64,000 nt of DNA from Malania oleifera. Taxonomy: Eukaryota > Streptophyta > Magnoliopsida > Santalales > Ximeniaceae. Position numbers and translations under genes: made by a program. Shown one piece after another: positions 5,932-58,049 of this stretch; the first letter of the stretch is position 1, and each line of letters starts with the position of its first letter. The stretch spans positions 1,902,001 to 1,966,000 of the forward strand of contig NC_080422.1 in the NCBI RefSeq assembly GCF_029873635.1, read 5' to 3'. The notes beneath the pieces are model-generated. The model was not told where the DNA came from. It did not search any database and saw only the letters and a list, made by a program, of their open reading frames with translations.

Positions 5932-7250
5932 GTGGTGTATCCCTAATTGGTGTGGAACAAATCTCTGTAAGACCTCCAATGTTTTATGATGAAAATTTCA
6001 CCGAGTGGAAAATGAAAATCACTATTTTTATCAAATCCATGGATTGAAGAACTTGGAGAGTAATTGATCAAGGAAACTTAGTTCCTATGAAAATTATTGA
6101 TAATGTTGAATCCCTAAATCTAAATATGAGCTGAATAAGAATGACATGAAATTAATGCAAATAAATTTCGGTGCTATGAACATTCTATTGCTTGGTTTAG
6201 ATACTAATGTTTTTCATGAAATCAAGTCATGTCAAAGTGCTAAGGAGATATAGGAAGAGCTCGATAGGAGATTTGGAGAGACCAAAGGAAAGAAGTCTTC
6301 TACTTGGGAAGATCCATGCTCAAATGATAAGGTAGTAGAAAACTATGGCCTAATTGCATTGGTTGATGAAGAGGTACACTCTACTCATTCTACTTCTTAT
6401 TCAAATTCTCAAAATGATTCATGCAATGACTGTGATACATCTTGTGATTCTTCTGATAGTGAATATTATGATGAATCTGATAATGATGACATGCCATCTT
6501 ATGAGGAATTACAAAAGGGATTTGCTAAGGCTCTTAAAATGCTAACAAAGATGTCCAAAAAGAAAATAATGTTGGAAAGTGAAAATAAAGACTTAGCAAA
6601 ACAGTTAGAAGATTTTCGAGAGTCACATACTTCTTGGGAAAAAGAAATGATTGAAAAGGAATTAGAAATTAAGAGATTAGAAACCAAGAATGAGACATCA
6701 CTGAAAGATTTAGAGTCAAAATTTGGTGTTGAAAAAGACAAGGACATGAAAATCATAACATTAGAAAACAAGAATGATATGATAACAAAAGAGCTGAAAG
6801 AGTTAAGATCCAAGATTTCGAGTGATAATGTAAGAGATCTTAAAATCTATGAACTTGAATGCAAAGCAAACAAAGTGATAGATGAATTGGTAAAGTTACA
6901 AGCTGTTTGCAAAGGCTTAAAGAATTTAAAAATCCAAGACCTAGAAAGAAAGATAGAGGATCAAACTAAGATCATCCATACATTTACTAAGGGAAAAGAA
7001 AAAATTGACAAGCTCTTAGGTTCTCAAAAGATGACCTTAGACAAAGAAGGTATGGGTTATAATGAAATTGAAAATAGGAGAAGAAAGAACCTATACATGG
7101 GGTAATTTGTTAGAGCGTCAAAATTCTATACTAGTGCCTCCACCGGTCCGTATGCTCACACAACTTGTGTATTATGTAAAAATAAAGGACACATTAAATT
7201 TGATTGTCCATTTAAAAGGAAAGGTGTGAAGTTCAAACAGGTTTGGTGAG
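5932..7250 (+). pseudogene. copia gag (UBN2-type) with coiled coil and CCHC knuckle, frameshifted
   Basis: Gag packages the element RNA. An ATG at 5932 opens a frame whose first part contains RPPMFYDENFTEWKMKI, the typical start of plant copia gag, but a stop follows within about 40 codons. The main surviving frame (6359-7105) is in another phase and encodes an acidic Ser/Asp-rich stretch followed by a long Lys/Glu coiled coil. After a stop the same frame continues to a CX2CX4HX4C zinc knuckle (CVLCKNKGHIKFDC, 7166-7207). The gag is therefore broken by at least one frameshift and stops. The coiled-coil insertion before the knuckle is characteristic of Sirevirus-type gag. No protease, integrase or reverse transcriptase follows. 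Confidence 0.8.
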
Positions 7251-8139
7251 TCAAAGAAAAATGAGTACCAAACAAACCCAAAAAAAAAAAACTCCTCGTT
7301 AGACTTTAGGATTGAGAATTTAGTGAAATCAGTCATATAAACAAAAGGGGGTCGTGATGACTACTAGGCTTGGGAATAGTATATGCTTAGAATGTAAATC
7401 TTAGTATGTGTATCATTATACTAAGAATCCTACGAGAAAGTTAAGTCAATCTGATTCTTTAAGTAAGATATCCAATCTAATTACCTAATGCCTTTATATT
7501 GTAATGATTGGGTGAAATGTAAACATATTGAATAGCTTGCAAATCTTGATGTATTCAAAGGGAAGGCTGAGAGATTAATTGTTATATCCTTGCAATGAGT
7601 ATCATAAAACATAACATTGAAGAATAAATTCACTTGCAAATGAATTAAACCATTGCTGTTTAACGAACAATACTTATTGCTTAACACATGCTTAAATATT
7701 AAAACCCTAAGTTAAGCAGATCATGTCTAATGCATAAGACTGAGCCTTAGGAATAAATCATAGATTAAAAATCATCTAATCCTAAACTCATTCTTGGAGG
7801 TTCAAAGGGTTAAATCAGTCATCATCCTAGTCACAATTAGTGATAAATCATAAACTCTACATCTTTCAAGTGCTTATTAAAAGATATCCCATTAAAATCG
7901 AATCAAGGCATTCTCTAAAGGAATCGAATTGTTACCTAAACATTTTTAATGAATATTCCTGTTGTGCGTAAAATGTAAAAAACCCTAAGTTTGATATGTG
8001 ATTAAGCAACATTCTCCACAAGAAATCTTTACCATACCCTAATCATATCCAGTAAAGACTCATCTATTATAGGGTAGTACCCTTGCTTAAAAATTGAATA
8101 CATACTTATAAGGTACCGTCCAATAATTGGATAATCAGA
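7251..8139 (+). other. decayed interior of a copia element, no recognisable domain
   Basis: AT-rich sequence with many stops in every frame. It lies between the gag zinc knuckle and a solo LTR and is presumed to be remains of the retroelement interior. Confidence 0.4.
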
Positions 8140-18104: not shown

Positions 18105-23370
<5,266 letters not shown>

Positions 23371-30355: not shown

Positions 30356-30920
30356 TGTAACGATCTCAAATTTCTTATAATTTTTTTTTTATATATATAC
30401 AGCAAACATTCCTACGCAGCGAAAACATATATCATGAAACCATTTATACATAAACTGTACAATACCAGGTTCTAGAATATACAGACCATACACAAAAATG
30501 CCACTCCAATATTATCTATCCCAAAAACATACACATCTCTGCCAAAAACTCATCCTATAACCAGGGTGACCAAACACTTTCTCTATCCGCGAGCCTGATC
30601 TGCTTGCCTATCTGGCTCACCTAAAAAATGTTAGGATAATGGGGTAAGTCAACGCTCAGTAAGTGGAAATAGCTATTACTAGTGTGTGGCAACTAAGTTA
30701 AGGATACTTTTAAAATAAAGTCTGAATTGTAATGCAATAAATCATCTATAAATCATATCTTTCAAGCATATCTTTCTTTCTTTATTTAAAACATATTGTA
30801 TCATCTGTTTTCTACTTTTTATACTAGTAATATCATACTATACTGTAAAACTGTAAATATATAAATATCTGTACTTTATCCCTGGGACTCTGTACGTCAT
30901 GATTTGCCCCTCATGACAGG
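30356..30920 (-). repeat. partial minus-strand gypsy LTR (family D)
   Basis: Begins TGTAACGATCTCAAATTTC. It has GCGAGCCTGATCTGCTTGCC and CGCTCAGTAAGTGGAAAT...GTGTGTGGC in common with the LTRs at 52743 and 59707. It ends abruptly after CCCCTCATGACAGGG, where the GC-richer tandem repeat upstream of the homeobox ORF starts. Its own U3 and TATA box are absent. Confidence 0.7.
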
Positions 30921-30921
30921 G

Positions 30922-31113
30922 TTCTCCCTCGATTTGTGCAAAACGCGTTGATCGATATCCGTGAAACGCGTCGCCCTCTCTCGGTTCTCGCGACACACAT
31001 CGTTCTCCCTCAATTTGTGCAAAATGTGTTGCTCGATATTCGTGACACGCGTCGCTCTCCCTCAATTCTCGCAATACATGTCACACTCTCTCGATTTCCA
31101 CAACACGCGGCCA
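30922..31113 (+). repeat. 81-bp tandem repeat (about 2.4 copies) rich in ACGCGT palindromes
   Basis: Copies begin at 30922, 31003 and 31084 with TTCTCCCTCRATTT or a close variant. Each full unit contains three sub-blocks ending in CGCGT-type words (AACGCGTT, AAACGCGTCG, GACACGCGTCG), several of which appear as TG/CA versions (ATGTGTTG, ACACATCG). The array ends six bases before the TATA box of the homeobox ORF. Confidence 0.85.
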
Positions 31114-31119
31114 TTCCCT

Positions 31120-31127
31120 TATAAAAA
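31120..31127 (+). promoter_or_regulatory. TATA box upstream of the homeobox ORF
   Basis: TATAAAAA lies 119 bp before the ATG at 31246. The intervening sequence is a C/T-rich, ATG-free leader, as expected for a genuine plant 5' UTR. Confidence 0.65.
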
Positions 31128-31245
31128 GGTTCTGCCCTTCTCGAACTCTAAGCATCACAACTTTCTATCATCTTGAATAATCACATTTCAGTTTGCAGTG
31201 ATTAGCTCTTCCTAACTTGTCTCTTAGTTGTCTCATTACTCAAAA

Positions 31246-31938
31246 ATGTTCTCAAATCACCCAACTCCCCAAGTTGCTGAGAGCAGCACTAGATTGTCGA
31301 TCCAAAGATGGAAACCCAGTAAGGCACAGCTGGAGATTCTAGAGGAGGCCTTCCACAGCAGTCAAGGGGAACTCCCTTCCGTGGAGCGGACTATCTTGCT
31401 TGCAGCACAACTCCGACGGTATGGTCCAATCGAGCCGAGAAATATACGCTTTTGGTTTGAGAACCATAGGCGTAGGCGGGGATCAGTTGGACAAGCCACT
31501 ATCTCAACTATTGCCCAATCAATTCTCCATATTACCTCCTTCGCCACTACCGACCCGAGCAGTGCCCCTGCCATTCTTCCAACCCTCTTCCCTATCGAGA
31601 ATATTCCTACTATGAAACTTACAACTAATATCACACCAATGAGTCATATCCCTTACAATAGCAATATCGCAGTCACCACACTAAGGGTTTCGGATAATGT
31701 TGGCCTACTTCACCATTGCAAGGAAATCCGATGCGCATTGAGACTCATATACGGGCCACCAATAACTCGGGAAGAGGGCAGCTCTTCCTCCTTCGCCGAA
31801 CAAACAGGCGTTCTCTCCCTTTTTCCAACCCAAGCTAGCGACATTATAAGAGGTCAACTCTGCCAAGAAAGAACCCAGGCGGTTAGCAGTGACACCGCTA
31901 GTACTGCGATAGATGTTAACGTTGATCTAAGGCTCTAA
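31246..31938 (+). CDS. WUSCHEL-related homeobox (WOX)-like protein, intronless and divergent
   Basis: Predicted 230-residue nuclear DNA-binding regulator of the WUS/modern WOX clade. Residues 21-79 form a homeodomain beginning RWKPSKAQLEILEEAF, with the WOX-type enlarged loops (QLRRYGPIEPRN) and a third helix NIRFWFENHRRRRG. Trp70, Phe71 and Asn73 (homeodomain 48, 49, 51) are kept, but the usual Gln50 is Glu72 and the normal NVFYWFQNHKAR core is strongly altered. A WUS-box-like TGVLSLFPTQ lies at 187-196 and an EAR-like DVNVDLRL ends the protein, so both repressor motifs survive. The ATG at 31246 is the first in the frame; upstream only a TTG would extend it. WOX genes usually have introns, and this ORF has none. 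It sits inside a nested retroelement, with a repeat array and TATA box before it and a gypsy 3' end about 280 bp after it. It could be a retrocopy, a captured gene, or a real gene invaded by elements. Confidence 0.8.
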   Translation: MFSNHPTPQVAESSTRLSIQRWKPSKAQLEILEEAFHSSQGELPSVERTILLAAQLRRYGPIEPRNIRFWFENHRRRRGSVGQATISTIAQSILHITSFATTDPSSAPAILPTLFPIENIPTMKLTTNITPMSHIPYNSNIAVTTLRVSDNVGLLHHCKEIRCALRLIYGPPITREEGSSSSFAEQTGVLSLFPTQASDIIRGQLCQERTQAVSSDTASTAIDVNVDLRL

Positions 31939-31984
31939 AGGCTAGTTCTCGTATATTTTTAATTTATAGGACATGTATAATATA

Positions 31985-32022
<38 letters not shown>

Positions 32023-32221
32023 TATAATTATCATTTTCCACATCTTCTGAATTTCTTTTCCATTTCAACCTTTATTAGACCGACGATTCACACTTCAATT
32101 TCCAAAATAAAATACTTCGCCAAATTGACCCTCAATCTATTCTAAGACTTAGTCAAATCGTTAATCAATGTACTCTTTTAAATAGCGCAACCAATTATAC
32201 AGTACTCATTTTAAATTAGCA
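31939..32221 (+). other. 3' flank of the homeobox ORF with AT microsatellite
   Basis: Contains a (TA)n-like run near 31980-32030 and AT-rich sequence without a recognisable domain. It may hold the 3' UTR of the homeobox ORF, the degraded 3' interior of a gypsy element, or both. Confidence 0.45.
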
Positions 32222-32254
32222 AATTTCGAGGACGAAATTTTTATGAGGGGAAAT
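32222..32254 (+). other. 3' end of a gypsy internal region with polypurine tract
   Basis: AATTTCGAGGACGAAATTTT followed by GAGGGGAAAT directly before TGTGATGACCC is the usual junction between the end of pol and the 3' LTR in plant Tekay/Del-type gypsy elements. It shows that the LTR at 32255 served as a 3' LTR. Confidence 0.8.
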
Positions 32255-34738
32255 TGTGATGACCCAAAAATATATATAATTAAAGTACAATAATAATAAA
32301 ATAATAAAAATGGTCATTAAGTTAATATCAATACTAAAGTGTTTTTCTGTAGGATCCTTGATTCCATGTTTGATGCCTAAGAAAGACCTTGTCTTAGCGA
32401 GTGCTCAGAGACCATTGCGGCTCAGTCGCTCCTTGGAGGTCGGCCTGGTCAAAATGGAATTTCATAGGATAAACAGGATAGACATTGTTTGTACACGTAA
32501 ATAAATATATATACATAAAATAGTGTTTTGACAGACATAATTTGTAAAAATACATAATAAGATGATAATAATATAGGTATCATATATGGGGCCCACAAGA
32601 CTATGTGGGGTCCACATGAGTTCCGGAACCATAAGACACTGTTTATATAGGTAAATAAGTACATAAAATAATATTTTGACTGATATAATTTATAGAAATA
32701 TATGATAAAATAATAATAATATAGGTATCCTATGCGGGGCCCACAAGACTGTGTGGGGCCCACATGAGTCCCGAAGCCGTATAAAGGTTTACACGAGTCT
32801 CAAAGCTATTTAGGATGCATAAAATCGTATAAGAATTATTCGAATTACGTAGGATCCATTCGGGTCTCGAAGTTGTGTGGGGCCCATAAGACCATGTGGG
32901 GCTCACATGAGTTTTCAAAATTCAAATTTAATTCTTGTTCAAAAATAAATAATAAAATAAATAAATACTAAAAATAGTTTAAAAGTAATAACAATGATAA
33001 TAATGATTAAGAAAAATAATAAATTAATAAATTAACTAATTGATTAATTAATTAAGTAAGTAGTTAATTAAAAATTCATTTAATGGGAATGGTGGCAAGC
33101 ACTCCCACATGGCCTCCATCCCCATCCCATACTCAACTCATACCTTGCCCATCCCTTGCCCATTCTTTAATTTTTAAAAATTATAATTTCACCCATCTCC
33201 CCACACTTTTATAAATTTCATTTCTTCTCCAAAATTTTCCTATAAATAGGGAGCTCTCAACCTTCATTTTTCACACCAATTTTCTAAGGAAGAGAAGAAT
33301 TAGTGAGTGAAAGAAATTATGGTGGAGAGAGAATTTTTGAGTAAGTTCTCAATCACCCACTCTTTCCGATCTCATTTCTTAGAGATAGTTACAGTGTTCG
33401 TAAGGAAGAAAGTAAGTAAATTTTGATTATGTTAGTTTTTTTTTATTTAAAATTCATACCCGAGTTTATTTTATAAGTAAATTTCAATTATGTTAATTAG
33501 TTCCACAAAATTTTCATGAGTTTATTTTTTACGCATATTTAATTATACTAGTTCTATTTTTAATATACTTGCATCTATTTTTGGGTTAAGAAATGTTCTA
33601 ATCCCCTCGGGTAAATTTTCAACATTTCTTTCTATTCAAAAATAAAATTATATATATTTTTAACACAAAAATTGTGTGGCATGAGTTTATTTCTACGTTG
33701 AATTTTTTTTGAAAATATGAGTAAAGATGAGATTTTCACGATATTATTTTAAATTGCCTAAATTATAATAAGATGATTTTAAAACCCCTTATGGCAACGA
33801 AAGTTTAAAGTTACAGATGCTCGGTACCACAGCTTAAAGTTTATACGGATTAGAGTGCCCCCACACTGTTTACAGAGTGGTTATTTATGTTAGTGGATTT
33901 CTCTTGAGTGCACACCTGGTTCTGAATCAGGACTTAATAAGGAAAATCTCACTTAAAGTTTACGTACGTTGATTTAGTTTGGTCGGTTAGCCAGCTAAGT
34001 CCAATCTTCGGACCGCACAACCCAGTCATGGGGGTAAACATGACTTACGGCAAACAGGCCTAAGGGTGGTTTTTATAATATATGTTTATACATATTTAAT
34101 TACGTGTACAAAGTCACTGATGATTTGAAGGAAAAGTGTAACTTTACGTGAAAAGTATCATTTTGGTGCTTAAATGACGATCTAAGGAAAACGTATAAGG
34201 AAAAGTATATGTACGTTTATCATTAAATGTTTATACAGTTTTAAAGTTAAAAGTTTAATTTAACAGTTATAGTATATAATTATAAAATATTACTATTGTA
34301 ATTGATAACAAAAGTTTTATGCAGAAAACTTTAAATTTATATTTATTCTAAAAGAAATTTTGAAGTTATAGTATTAAATATTGTTTTACGAAATTTTTAA
34401 AAAAAACTCATTTTGGCCACACACTAATAATAATCTTATTTACTTACTGAGCGTCGTCTCACTCCAATCATATTTTTATTTTAGATAACTCTAAAGAGCA
34501 TGTTGGAAATCAGGCTCAACAAGCATGTGGGTGGAGATAGAAAAATAAAGATTTGTTTAGAAATATTAAGTATGATGTCAGATATTTATGCTTGTGAAAT
34601 TTTTCTTCTTTTTAAATAAATGATTGTAATATGGATAATTAGTGCTCTGGTTTAATAACAATTAAGTTTATGTTGCTTCCGCTGTAAATTAGTAGTAAAA
34701 AGTTAATATCCCAGCCCCTTCGGGGTCGGGGTGTTACA
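32255..34738 (+). repeat. gypsy LTR (3' LTR by position), 2484 bp
   Basis: Termini TGTGATGACCC...GGTCGGGGTGTTACA. U3 includes a tandem duplication of about 140 bp (roughly 32503-32785) and repeated GTGGGGCCCACA-type palindromes (32588-32905). TATAAATAGG is at 33241-33250, and the CCACACACTAATAATA...CTTACTGAGCGTCG block is at 34416-34456. No same-orientation partner LTR was found upstream, so the 5' half of this element is missing. Confidence 0.8.
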
Positions 34739-37417
34739 CTTTATCCACAACACTCACAAATCGACCACGTCAACAACCCTACTACCATTCACATGACCCG
34801 ACCCGCATTGGATACAGGGTAAAAAGTCATTTCATTATTACAACCTAACAATGGAAGACAATATAATTACATTATCCAGAATACAATACCCAGAGTATCT
34901 ACACACACATATATACATCACCATCACAAACTCAAATCAACCCAACTCTAGGAGAAATTACACATCCCCTAATCCAAAACTCACCCTATGTGTCAGGGTC
35001 CCAACTCCCTATGATCACGGAGCTCTATCACCTGGTCTATCCTTATTCCCTAAAAAATTTAGATAATTCGGATGAGACACATCTCAGTAAGAAGGAATAA
35101 ATTATTTACAGTGTGTGGCCATATGAGGTTAGTTATAACATGCTTTATTTTTCAAAACAACATTTCATATGAGAAAATACACTGATATTCATATTCACAT
35201 AATCATATAGATATATAACACAAGCTTTTATTAGCTTTAAAACCATTTCTAAAGTTTATTCATTTCCAACACACATAATTACTCACGAAATTCCTGAGAA
35301 TAGGGAAGATTGTCTGCCCATACAGGTAGCTTTCCTCTGCCCTAACACGTTATGCAGCTAGGAATGGCCACATCTGATACCTATCAGGGCACTCACCTTA
35401 CTCAGTAAGCCCTTAAGCGGAGAGTTTCACTTTGCCTCAATTATTTATTTTATAAAACACACGCTCTTTCATTTTTCATAATCATTTCCCATTTTAACTC
35501 ATTACATATCTATGTATACATAAATTCACATTTATGTACTTTACATAACACATTAGATTGCATAATTCCAATTCTCAACACATTCACGATTTCCATACTG
35601 AGCATACCTCCCCAACGGCACCAATAGGAATCTCACAACACAATTTCCATACTAAGCATACCTCCCAAGCGGCATTAGTAGGAACTTCACAACACAATTT
35701 CTATACTGAGCATGCCTCCCCAACGGCATCAGTAGGAACTTCACCAATTTCCATACTGAGCATACCTCCCCAACGACATCAGTAGGAACTTCACGCACAC
35801 AATCTCCCTACTCAGCATACCTCCCCAACGTTATTAGTAGGAACTTCACACACACACACACACAGTCTCCATACTGAGCATACCTCCCCAACGACATCAG
35901 TAGGAACTTCACACACACACACACACAATCTCCATACTGAGCATACCTCCCTAATGGTATCAGTAAGAACTTCACACACACACACACATAGTCTCCATAG
36001 TAAGCATACCTCCCCAACGGCATCAGTAGGAACTTCACACACACACACAATCTCCATACTGAGCATACCTTCCCAATGGCATCAATAGGAACTTCACACA
36101 CACACACACACAGTCTCCATACTGAGCATACCTCCCTAATGACATCAGTAGGAATGGAAAACCACCCAACCGCAATTATTGTGCGGTATTGACATATCAT
36201 CAATCATATTTCAATATATCTTAATTCAATTTAATATAAATATTCTTATCATTTTCTGTGTATATTTCATCATCTCATAATAATATATATCATATTTCGC
36301 ATATTTCCACATTTCCCAAAATACTCATATTAGTAATTTGTACAAATTCATTTTTCATGCAAATAATTTCTACTCACATATAAATATCATATCAATAATT
36401 CTTTTTCAATATTTTCTTAGAAAATACACATAATTATATTTCACATTTTTCAACATATGTCATGTGCCACACAATTTTCATCTAATACTCATAATATGTT
36501 AATTTCACACTACAAAACATCCAATTTAATATTACTCAAATGCCACACAATTTATCTAATATTTATATCATAATAATTTTTAGGCAAAATACCATATGTT
36601 CATTTTCACCCATTAATTCACACAGTAATTCTAAAAATACTGTTATAATTTATTCCCCTTACCTGACTTACTGAGAGTCTCGTTAGGACCCAAATCCTAC
36701 GCCTTTGGTGCTTGAAATTCAAATCCTACAATTAACATTTTTCCTAAATTAATTAACTTATTTTCCCAAAATAATACCCATCTAACCTTTCCTAGGCTTC
36801 ATATACTTCAAATTAATATTTAAACTAATATTTAACACCCCCACTTAATTTTCTGAATTTTGCTTGTGAGTCCCAAAATTACACCCGCGGCACTCATCGA
36901 GACCCTAAATTTCAAAAATTATACTTCAACTCTAGATGCTCAATATTTTAATATTTATAAATTAATCCTAATTAATTAAAAATAAGCCCCTTAATAACCC
37001 TCGTACCTCAAATTTGAGATTTTGCCCATGACAACCCCACGAGAATTCCGTCCCACTAGACTTGTAGAGAATCATCCCTAAATTCTTGTGATGGTATTCG
37101 TTCGTCAATCGGAGTTATAATTTGTAAGAAATTAAAGAAAAAAGGAGAAATTGGCTTACCCCAAGAGATATGTCCACGCCGCTCCTACCACCGATCCGCT
37201 CTGGTAGAAATGACGACAGTGGAGAATGAAGTTCAACGGTATCTTCTGATTCTCGATTGGGCGAGAATCTGTCACGTAACTGAGGAGAGAGGGAGAAATA
37301 ATGAGAGGAGAGAGAGAGAGAGAGAGAGTTCAGGCCTCTGGATCTTCTTCTTCTTCTTTCTTTTTTGTTTTTTAATTTTTGAAACCTCCTGAAGCATTTG
37401 CTTCAGGAGGGATAAAG

Positions 37418-55440: not shown

Positions 55441-56160
55441 GTCGGACCTTGTTACAAGCCTGCTAAACAATCTTTGGACCCAAAACTCGCCTTTCGCTTA
55501 CCTCATCCCAGAAGAGAAGAGAATGACATCTCCTACCATACAGTGCCTCGTATAGAGCCATGCTGATACTAGACCGGTAGCTGTTATTATAGGAAGATTC
55601 AACTAGTGGTAGAAACTGAGTCCAGCTACCCCCAAAATCTAGCACGTAAGCACGAAGCATATCTTCTAAGGTCTGAATTGTCCTCTCAGTCTGATCATCT
55701 ATCTGGGGATGGAAAGTTGTACTAAATGCTAACTATGTACCCATAGCCTCTTGAAAGTTTTTCCAGAATCGTGAAGTAAACCGAGGATCCCAGTTTGAAA
55801 CTATAGATATTGGTACACCATGGACGCGAACTATCTCCTGAACATATATCTCTGCCAGTCTATCCATGGAATAGCCGACTTTAATAGGGATAAAATGGGC
55901 AGTCTTCGTCAAATGATCAATAACTACCCAAATTACATTCAATCCCAGCCGCACTGGTGGTAACCCCGTAACAAAATCCATAGAAACGTGGTCCCACTTC
56001 CACTCTGGATTAAACAATGGCTGCAACTGTCCTGCTAGTCTCTGGCGCTCAGCCTTAACCTTCTGGCATGTCAAACACTGCTATACAAATTCAGCAATTT
56101 CTCTTTTCATCCTACTCCACCAAAAGTACTCTCGCAAATCTATGTACATTTTAGTACTAC
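55441..56160 (-). pseudogene. integrase zinc-binding end and catalytic core
   Basis: The core is at 56074-55733 (WKWDHVSMDFVTGLP, VIDHLTKTAHFIP, SNWDPRFTSRFWKNFQEAMG), continuing at 55660-55463 (GGSWTQFLPLVE, YEALYGRRCHS). The expected first catalytic Asp (MDFVTGLP) and second (WDPRFTS) are visible. Stops break the frame at several points. Confidence 0.85.
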
Positions 56161-56910
56161 CCGGATGAATAATGTATAGGGATTTGTGAGCTTCCTCCAA
56201 TACAATTCTTCTGATCTCAGTATTTGCAGGAATATAAAGCCTGGTACGGAATTGCAAGGCTCCATCATCTGATATGCTAAACTCCCCTCCCTGACCATCC
56301 CTCACTCTAGCCATAACCTCCGCCAACTCTACATCATCACCCGAAGCTACTTTAATTTTCTCATATAAGGTAGGTTGTATAACTAGGCTGGCAACAAAAG
56401 CTTGTGGACTATCCTCTACCAACTCTATACTGAGTCTCTCCAAATCCATCAGGATCAGGTGTTGAATCTCTATGGCTGCTAGTATTGGCTCTACTGACTT
56501 CCTCCTCAGAGCATCTGCCACTACATTCGCTTTTCCTAGGTAGTAACTAATAGTACAGTCATAATCTTTGATAAGTTCTAACCACCTTCTTTGTCTCATG
56601 TTCAATTCTCCCTGGGTGAAGAAATATTTCAAACTCTTGTGATCCGTAAAGATTTCGCATTTCCCACCATACAGATAATGCCTCTAGATTTTAAGAGGGT
56701 ACACCACTGCAGCTAACTCCAAATCATGCACAGGGTAATTCTTCCCATATTCTTTAAACTGTCTAGAAGTATATGCAATGACTTTGTCATGCTGCATCAA
56801 TACGTACCCAAGGCCCTTTAGGGATGCATCACTGTAAATCACAAACCCATCCTCTCTAGAAGGAATAGCAAATACTGGGGCTGTGACCAACCTCTGCTTC
56901 AACTCCTGGA
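56161..56910 (-). pseudogene. RNase H and start of integrase (H2C2-like)
   Basis: The frame at 56902-56684 carries [18 protein letters not shown] and [16 protein letters not shown], and the frame at 56632-56081 carries [34 protein letters not shown] and the [17 protein letters not shown] segment of the integrase N-terminus. A short break near 56640-56690 separates the two frames. Confidence 0.85.
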
Positions 56911-56949: not shown

Positions 56950-57640
56950 TTTTCCTCGTAAGTCGCGTCAACGAACCTGATAAACTGAAAAAACCTCTAC
57001 GAAGCGTCGGTAATAGCCTGCTAATCCCAGAAAACTCCGAACCTCTTGAACATTTCTAGGCCTCATCCAATTTACCACTACCTCTATCTTACTCGAATCG
57101 ACAGATACACCTGCCTCAGAGATCACGTGACCGAGAAAAGAAACTTGTTTCAGCCGGAATTCACATTTCTTGAACTTCGCATATAACTTTCTCTCTCTCA
57201 ATGTCTGCAATACCAGCCTCAAATGATGCTCGTGCTCCTTAAAGCTCCTCGAGTAGACCAGTATATCATCAATAAATACAACTGCGAACTAGTCTAAATA
57301 CTGATGGAACACTTGGTTCATTAAATCCATAAATACCACTGGTGCGTTAGTAAACCCAAATGGCATCACCAAGAACTCGTAATGCCCATATCTCATACAA
57401 AATGCCATTTTCGAGATGTCCTTTACCCTTACTTTTACCTGATGGTAACCCGACCGTAGGTCGATTTTAGAATAAACCTGGGCCCCTTGGAGCTGATCAA
57501 ATAAATCGTCGATCTTGGGAAAAGGATATTTATTCTTAACTGTTAGTTAATTTAGCTCCCTATAATCTATACACATCCTTATGGTCCTATTTTCTTTTTC
57601 ACAAATAAGACTGGTGCTCCCCAAGGTGACACGCTGGGCC
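56950..57640 (-). pseudogene. reverse transcriptase, catalytic half
   Basis: The frame at 57222-56968 shows [36 protein letters not shown] and [15 protein letters not shown]. Upstream, in decayed frames, are the FIDD-type active-site segment near 57255-57275 and a conserved [15 protein letters not shown] block near 57505-57535. Stops and frameshifts separate the blocks. Confidence 0.8.
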
Positions 57641-58049
57641 TGATGAATCCCTTATCCAGTAATTCTTGCAATTGATCCTTCTGTTCTTTTAACTCAGCTG
57701 GGGCCATCCGATACGGAGCTTTATATACTAGTGCTGATCTCGGTAGAAGATCCACAGTAAACTCAACTTCATGGTCTGGTGGCAAATCAGGTAATTCCTC
57801 TGGGAATACATCTAAGAATTCTCTAACTATAGGAACATCAGCTTGTTTCAGTTTTTCTTTCGGTGATTCCTTAATGTAAGCAACAACTCCCTGGCAACCT
57901 TCTTGGATTAATTTTCTCACCTGAACAGCTGACGCAAGCTGTGGCGAAGAAAGTACCCGCGAACTAAGAAATCTATATTCTGACTCGCCTGGAGGTCTGA
58001 AAATCACTTCTTTCAAATGACAGTCAATACTAGCATGATTATCTGCCAA
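57579..58049 (-). pseudogene. reverse transcriptase N-terminal part and protease linker
   Basis: One frame: REFLDVFPEELPDLPPDHEV, PYRMAPAELKEQKDQLQELL, GFIRPSVSPWGAPVLFVKKK, the usual start of plant gypsy reverse transcriptase. The frame is lost after the last block. Confidence 0.85.

Follow-up and report, generated by a model that had tools for sequence, protein, structure and literature searches.

The intronless WOX-like open reading frame at positions 31246..31938 of the window (the whole analysed stretch of Malania oleifera DNA, 64,000 nucleotides) was found to belong to a 5'-truncated copy of a multicopy LTR retrotransposon family. A WOX-derived coding unit with a TATA-box-like sequence has spread to at least 150 well-matching places in the Malania genome, and most of the sampled frames are open. 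Among the explanations considered, we lean towards an element-encoded, WOX-derived regulator that is kept by selection on the element. An earlier note on the same DNA had favoured a neofunctionalised or captured WOX gene over a simple dead copy. Capture was supported, with a multicopy retrotransposon family as the unit concerned. A single neofunctionalised locus was contradicted by the dispersal of the copies within LTR elements and by the nature of the window copy, a 5'-truncated insertion. The following features were assigned to this copy, all on the forward strand:

30916..31077, forward strand: two direct repeats of ~81 bp upstream of the TATA box (repeat family D10; second copy 83% identical)
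30921..34738, forward strand: 5'-truncated copy of the WOX-carrying LTR retrotransposon (collinear with the copies L033x and L034x)
31120..31129, forward strand: TATA-box-like TATAAAAAGG, 126 nt upstream of the ATG
31246..31938, forward strand: intronless WOX-like open reading frame, 230 aa (Pfam, PDB search, genome matches)
31303..31485, forward strand: WOX-type homeodomain, residues 20-80 (Pfam, PDB search, WUS homeodomain profile)
31435..31479, forward strand: recognition helix 3, residues 64-78, PRNIRFWFENHRRRR, with homeodomain position 50 occupied by Glu (from the alignment with WUS and STF; helix limits set by homology)
31810..31833, forward strand: WUS-box-like VLSLFPTQ (window sequence; exactly VLSLFPTQ in 66 of 90 copies)
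31909..31935, forward strand: C-terminal EAR-like IDVNVDLRL (window sequence)
32225..32250, forward strand: remnant FEDEIFMRG and purine-rich tract before the LTR (sequence reading)
32255..34738, forward strand: 3' LTR, TGTGATGACCC...GTGTTACA, 2484 bp (comparison with L033x and L034x)

Structure and copy number of the element family

The window copy matched the whole copies L033x and L034x at 93.2 and 91.9% identity, respectively, and collinearly from 30921 to 34738. No further 5' element match (5' LTR, primer site, or first part of the internal region) was found within the window. Copies L031-L034 had common sequence far beyond the WOX frame. In L033x and L034x, the LTRs are 2.42-2.51 kb long, begin with TGTGATGA and end with TTACA. 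These paired TG...CA LTRs were 94.0% (L033x) and 94.8% (L034x) identical within a copy, with 68 substitutions in ~2,420 and 101 in ~2,490 aligned bases, respectively. At a substitution rate of 7e-9 per site per year, this divergence would correspond, as a rough guess, to about 2-3 million years. The 5-bp flanks of L033x (GAGTC/AAGTC) were equal at four of five bases; for L034x none were recognisable.

A primer site, TTTGGTATCAGAGC, which we take to be an initiator-methionine tRNA match, was present directly after the LTR in L031, L032, L033x, and L034x, and a purine-rich tract, GAGGGGAGA, precedes the 3' LTR in L033x and L034x. The order of parts in L033x was LTR, primer site, ~2 kb of internal sequence including ~80-bp repeats, TATA box, WOX frame, pol-like remnant, and 3' LTR. 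The FEDEIFMRG remnant of the window copy presumably resembles the last part of pol from a Ty3 element. By inspection, no gag- or pol-like frames were found among frames of at least 90 codons in L031-L034 or of at least 40 codons in the internal region of L033x, and the element was therefore filed as non-autonomous. The internal region of L033 also holds a reversed tRNA-like stretch (GGACTCGAACCCGCGATC...GGCCACCCACCC), probably a SINE; a like stretch occurs in L031.

The TATA-box-like TATAAAAAGG was retained in 29 of 30 copies, including that in the window (L003 reads TAGAAAAAGG), and would act as a promoter. TGA, TGAA, TGAT, and TAAT were not enriched in the LTR, promoter, or internal region. 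In the repeat/promoter stretch of L033x, TGA was low (z -3.2), CACGTG occurred twice vs. 0.2 expected, and TTAATG[GC] once vs. 0.0 expected; an excess of GA/CT in L033x stemmed from a simple-repeat run. With no site enrichment, self-regulation was unsupported.

A search of the window's own assembly (Malania oleifera, 1.494 Gb) with the window protein yielded 1,025 candidates. All 150 scored places matched over nearly the whole length, at 84-100% identity, and copies across the genome number well over a hundred. Ninety copies were fetched, comprising the top 30 and 60 of the other 120 scored places, hand-picked down the protein-ranked list. An internal stop was absent from 68 of these, the ATG was kept in 85, and 62 were intact from the ATG to the normal end; the protein ranking favours open frames, and the scarcity of frameshifts is partly due to this ascertainment. 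One copy carried a 1-nt insertion near its end and one a 9-nt deletion, and protein length in full copies was ~227-240 residues. A homeodomain-only search, which was less biased towards open frames, gave 649 candidates; among the best 150 of these, 19 were WOX-type loci of the host and 131 were rows of the element type. Within these 131 rows, 92 combined a stop-free homeodomain with a frame that was open over 230 aa or more. Among the first 11 element-type rows (L117-L127), frameshifts were present in L121 and L123, a stop inside the homeodomain in L127, and an early end of the frame in L117; L119 and L122 were open through to the EAR-like end.

A tandem arrangement was seen for some copies, with units repeating every 5.3-5.8 kb. 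In two arrays compared, the tandem units were 99.69 and 99.85% alike. Arrays were located in the Malania assembly at C7:96280977/96286743, C6:84607005/84612594, C1:68237773/68243402/68249037, C4:124242635/124248334, C2:95942015/95947380, C1:29240819/29246200, and C8:100636723/100642066. Two arrays were read, both of them LTR-internal-LTR-internal tandems.

Homeodomain, recognition helix, and relationship to WOX proteins

The mechanically delimited reading frame (31228-31938) starts at an upstream TTG. Sequence, Pfam, and PDB search bore out the uninterrupted 230-residue frame with a homeodomain, a WUS-box-like motif, and an EAR-like end that had been described in the earlier note. The Pfam Homeodomain model matched residues 20-77 of the window protein (E=3.3e-9). 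In a search of the PDB (177,635 distinct sequences, E up to 1), STENOFOLIA (2e-10) and WUSCHEL (5.8e-10), both of the WOX family (chains 6wig and 6ry3, respectively), were the sole matches. The window homeodomain aligned to the WUS homeodomain without gaps, and the window protein scored 43.5 bits with a WUS homeodomain profile made from the homeodomain pieces of 112 proteins holding WFQNHKARER (out of 120 listed). With a full-length WUS profile, the WUS box was matched as well, in collinear order but weakly (c-Evalue 0.014). At this box, the host loci L098-L102 read TLxLFPxx; the element retains LxLFP, with the first Thr replaced by Val. The EAR-like end most commonly reads IDVDVDLRL (70 of 90 copies). 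Relative to the LxLxL pattern, the element ends in VDLRL, with the first Leu replaced by Val, and the host WOX5-like locus L102 has LDLRL. A structure prediction of the window protein (12 sequences, pLDDT 34.6) was too poor to display helix 3.

A search of 5.8 billion proteins (E<=0.001), which depends on shared exact words and has ordinary WOX proteins out of its reach, returned as its sole match LOC131144967 of Malania oleifera (70% over 68%). This locus is annotated by NCBI as an 'uncharacterized protein', in a model without the WUS-box and EAR-like ends. From its sequence, LOC131144967 is a putative older relative of the element-borne WOX frame, and gene counts and WOX surveys of the Malania genome may include element genes of this kind.

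Helix 3 of the window copy reads NIRFWFENHRRRRG, as first described, and Asn51 is present. In an alignment of 90 element copies, homeodomain position 50 was Glu in 89 and Lys in one, and the WOX signature WFQN reads WFEN. In the host, Gln was found at position 50 in 18 of 19 WOX-type loci, with a stop there in L107. The His of 'ENH' in the window copy represents a minority state (Arg in 77 copies, His in 7, and Cys in 6). Four positions of WUS were changed in most copies: F85 to Arg (86/90), Y86 to Phe (84/90), A93 to Arg (82/90), and E95 to Arg (83/90). The end of helix 3 is arginine-rich in the element. Arg5, Asn51, and Arg55 (R38, N90, and R94 of WUS), which correspond to R21, N73, and R77 of the element, were kept in 89, 90, and 88 of the 90 copies, respectively. 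The Arg-Trp pair of the N-terminal arm (WUS R38-W39) was also present, with Arg21 in 89 and Trp22 in all 90 copies.

Passages in published work on WUS and STENOFOLIA describe R38, N90, and R94 as the main base readers and the role of Gln50 in WUS as less clearly defined (PMC7203112; PMC8329861). Asn51 and Arg55 are called strictly conserved across WOX members in part of one of these papers (PMC8329861), and an Arg adjoining Trp in the N-terminal arm is presented in part of the other as a peculiarity of WUS (PMC7203112). Because R21, N73, and R77 are kept and other helix positions are changed, reading of the TGA core may be retained, with altered readout of flanking bases and altered backbone contacts. 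The claim that DNA-binding specificity had changed would on this basis hold in part: replacement of Gln50 by Glu in nearly all copies argues for it, whereas conservation of the main base readers argues against it.

Six element homeodomains were 24-44% identical to those of 14 host WOX loci and Arabidopsis WUS, with averages of 31-40% when taken for each host sequence. In a tree of WOX-type sequences (these 14 host loci, Arabidopsis WUS, and the six element rows, without other plant homeodomain classes), the element rows formed a single clade with 100% support on a long branch (1.2 per site). The nodes that place this clade within WOX were supported at 36-67%. Because of these low values and the absence of Gln50, the element protein was filed as WOX-derived and not as a WOX member. 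When one whole element copy was used as query, the best DNA match to the 19 host loci had an E value of 0.039. A recent, decaying retrocopy of a host WOX gene, which would have spoken against the earlier reading, was ruled out by the homeodomain identities, the long branch, and this DNA comparison; the WOX capture appears to be either old or fast-evolving.

A WUS/WOX5-type donor would be favoured by the WUS-like loop length (equal to that of WUS in five of six element rows, and one residue shorter in L119), in combination with the WUS-box-like and EAR-like motifs. In the host WUS gene (L101), the homeodomain is not in the same frame as the WUS box, a pattern to be expected if an intron separates them. 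A cluster of WUS-like host loci was observed at C1:44656763-44686209 (L103, L104, L106, L107, and L109), ~0.9 Mb from L101, and further such loci lie elsewhere (L105 on C435; L108 at C13:48345875). Several of the loci L103-L109 contain stops, and they have in common an altered helix 3, with GTNVLYWFQN in most. This group has the appearance of a tandem WUS duplication that is decaying or diverging.

Selection on the WOX frame and alternative explanations

Selection was assessed within the family, from variants among the 90 copies, with the mutation spectrum of the single-copy variants themselves as the neutral yardstick. Single-copy variants (N:S:stop, 146:54:10) gave a neutral-looking omega of ~1.05, and variants in 2-4 copies (100:34:3) a value of ~1.15. 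Variants found in at least 5 of the 90 copies (55:48:3) showed an omega of ~0.44-0.45, and the comparison of variants in fewer than 5 vs. at least 5 copies was significant (Fisher p=1.5e-4). When the open reading frame was read in its wrong frames, N/S rose from 1.77 to 2.19 (p=0.40) and from 2.12 to 3.85 (p=0.04). The signal in shared variants came from C>T/G>A changes (0.41, p=6e-5), whereas all other changes gave 0.70 for shared vs. 0.92 for single-copy variants (p=0.54). Most shared variants were homoplasic, and those that fitted the tree perfectly (14N:10S) gave an omega of 0.54 (p=0.15). In the 30-copy set, N/S in the true frame went from 1.98 to 1.09 (p=0.09). Three made-up frames were also read in the non-coding sequence upstream in this set; one of them dropped from 2.30 to 1.29 (p=0.16), and the other two did not drop.

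Codon models with kappa gave an omega of 0.755 for 83 unique copies over the whole tree and of 0.726 for 12 old and young copies; by this measure, constraint was weak overall. Nei-Gojobori estimates for the 30 pairs that included an old copy were 0.31-0.57; this method takes no account of the high transition bias and gives values that are too low. In the 30-copy set, which carries a ranking bias, mean divergence was 4.5% in the open reading frame, 9.0% upstream, and 8.7% downstream, with 1 (in-frame), 15, and 44 gap runs, respectively. Four old copies (L117, L119, L122, and L127) differed from L012 by 14-17.5% in the open reading frame. Their indels in this frame were exclusively of 3, 6, 9, and 30 nt, and each had 2-4 indels upstream. 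These results indicated, with moderate confidence, that the WOX frame was maintained during the evolution of the family and that it drifts once a copy has been inserted. The claim that the frame had been kept open could thus be upheld to a moderate degree for the family, on the shared-variant omega and the in-frame indels of old copies. It did not extend to individual copies, whose private changes look neutral, and the codon-model values, the strict tree-fitting count, and the drop in a made-up upstream frame ran contrary to it.

The same data can be read as passenger capture, in which a WOX-derived stretch was trapped and amplified in a non-autonomous LTR element, its protein is useless to that element, and the frame is open merely because most copies are young and source copies were intact by chance. 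We consider this possible, if not probable. It fits the young burst evident from the near-identical tandem units, the neutral-looking single-copy changes with stops at about the neutral rate, the codon-model omega of 0.73-0.76, and the non-significant result of the strict count. Since one made-up upstream frame dropped in a similar way, our confidence in a selected regulator was lowered and that in a passenger raised. In-frame indels in all four old copies, the lack of any drop in the wrong-frame control within the open reading frame, and retention of the DNA-reading residues in 88-90 of 90 copies are harder to reconcile with a useless protein.

Two further explanations concern the nature of the locus and of the domain. 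An intronless, WOX-like frame with a rewritten helix 3 would also be expected of a single host WOX retrogene with a new function that lies among retroelements by chance, but the dispersed copies have the same flanking LTR, TATA, and 3' structure and the frame in the window does not stand out from theirs, which makes this account highly improbable. As the main reading it was ruled out by copy number; what is left of it is a possible domestication of one copy. That the homeodomain is of another class and merely resembles WOX is unlikely, even though the identity to host WOX sequences and Arabidopsis WUS is low in the six element rows, the placing nodes are poorly supported, and WFQN reads WFEN. 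The PDB matches were solely WOX chains, the alignment to the WUS homeodomain is ungapped, the WUS-box-like and EAR-like motifs stand in the expected order, and the Arg-Trp pair of the N-terminal arm is the feature described, in the passage cited above, as peculiar to WUS (PMC7203112).

Known systems and a possible role in meristems

Plant LTR retrotransposons are known to capture genes. In the titles and abstracts searched, no WUSCHEL, WOX, or homeodomain gene within, or captured by, an LTR retrotransposon was found. Among the nearest known systems are Ty3/Gypsy elements of Phalaenopsis that carry an AlkB-type m6A demethylase, which also represent a plant LTR lineage with an extra host-type reading frame and whose AlkB-type protein is described as active in vitro in a part of the publication (PMC9289625). 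According to the same part, those elements are 25 kb long, were identified through their reverse transcriptase, and code for an enzyme that modifies RNA (PMC9289625); in contrast, the Malania copies examined have neither gag nor pol, and the protein they encode has a homeodomain. In Aegilops tauschii, the LTR elements mentioned there similarly hold the DNA-binding domain of a plant transcription factor, which is a B3 domain and not, as in Malania, a homeodomain (PMC9289625). Maize Bs1 is likewise an LTR retroelement with host coding pieces, described in a passage of PMC13317346 as segments of three genes, none of full length; unlike Bs1, the Malania element has a single WOX-like coding unit, which includes the domain and the repressor-like motifs and is open in many copies. 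Compared with WUSCHEL and STENOFOLIA, the element protein has the homeodomain type, N-terminal Arg-Trp, Asn51, Arg55, LxLFP box, and EAR-like end in common, and differs by the replacement of Gln50 by Glu, the arginine-rich end of helix 3, the lack of introns, and its location in an element; its homeodomain also stands apart from the host WOX genes compared, at the identities given above.

A screen of 121 angiosperm genomes is reported, in its section on extra domains, to have found 15 extra LTR-retrotransposon domains under its filter, including PMD, G-patch, AIR1, B3, and AlkB-type domains (PMC9289625). That section does not name a homeodomain or WOX, and neither 'homeo' nor 'WUS' appears anywhere in the main text (PMC9289625). 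Because the screen, as described there, began from reverse transcriptase, elements without it would have been missed (PMC9289625).

For the favoured explanation, an element-encoded regulator under selection, the following course of events can be proposed. In the Malania lineage, the ancestor of a non-autonomous LTR retrotransposon would have acquired a WOX coding sequence without introns, probably from a WUSCHEL-clade donor, and multiplied, presumably via the enzymes of an autonomous Ty3-type relative. The internal unit (TATA box, short leader, and WOX frame) looks like a transcription unit of its own that would yield an mRNA. The WOX-derived protein would then be made, enter the nucleus, and bind TGA-core WOX sites through the kept Arg5, Asn51, and Arg55, and its C-terminal motifs would recruit or titrate a TOPLESS-type corepressor. 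In meristem cells, it could compete with or mimic host WUS/WOX5, and as the meristem cell lineage gives rise to germ cells, new insertions could be inherited.

As background from a part of PMC7560203, meristem stem cells of Arabidopsis yield germ cells and show transient TE expression. WUS is stated, in a passage of PMC10589665 citing Wu et al. (2020), to help keep RNA viruses out of stem cells. It may therefore be suggested, as a doubtful but conceivable extension of the favoured explanation, that the element uses a WUSCHEL-derived homeodomain factor on host meristem control, by which copies would be made in germ-line-forming cells; the factor might mimic, compete with, or repress WUS/WOX targets and perhaps weaken the stem-cell shield. 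The family would offer a way to test whether a retrotransposon can exploit a transcription factor of stem cells to gain access to the germ line.

Several other features were observed in the window. A coiled-coil-like reading frame lies at 6359-7105, and the stretch 6727-7261 is found again, at 72%, next to the element copy L033 and is therefore part of another dispersed repeat. A piece of retroelement polyprotein at 56081-56632 on the reverse strand, with an integrase zinc-binding domain (2.1e-10), belongs to a separate element, and the frame at 57579-58049 had no Pfam match. The C-terminal part of a glycosyl hydrolase of family 9 was detected at 18105-18575 on the reverse strand (Pfam 1.3e-44), and 35587-36167 is occupied by a minisatellite with ten copies of ~57 bp at a spacing of 50-63 bp.
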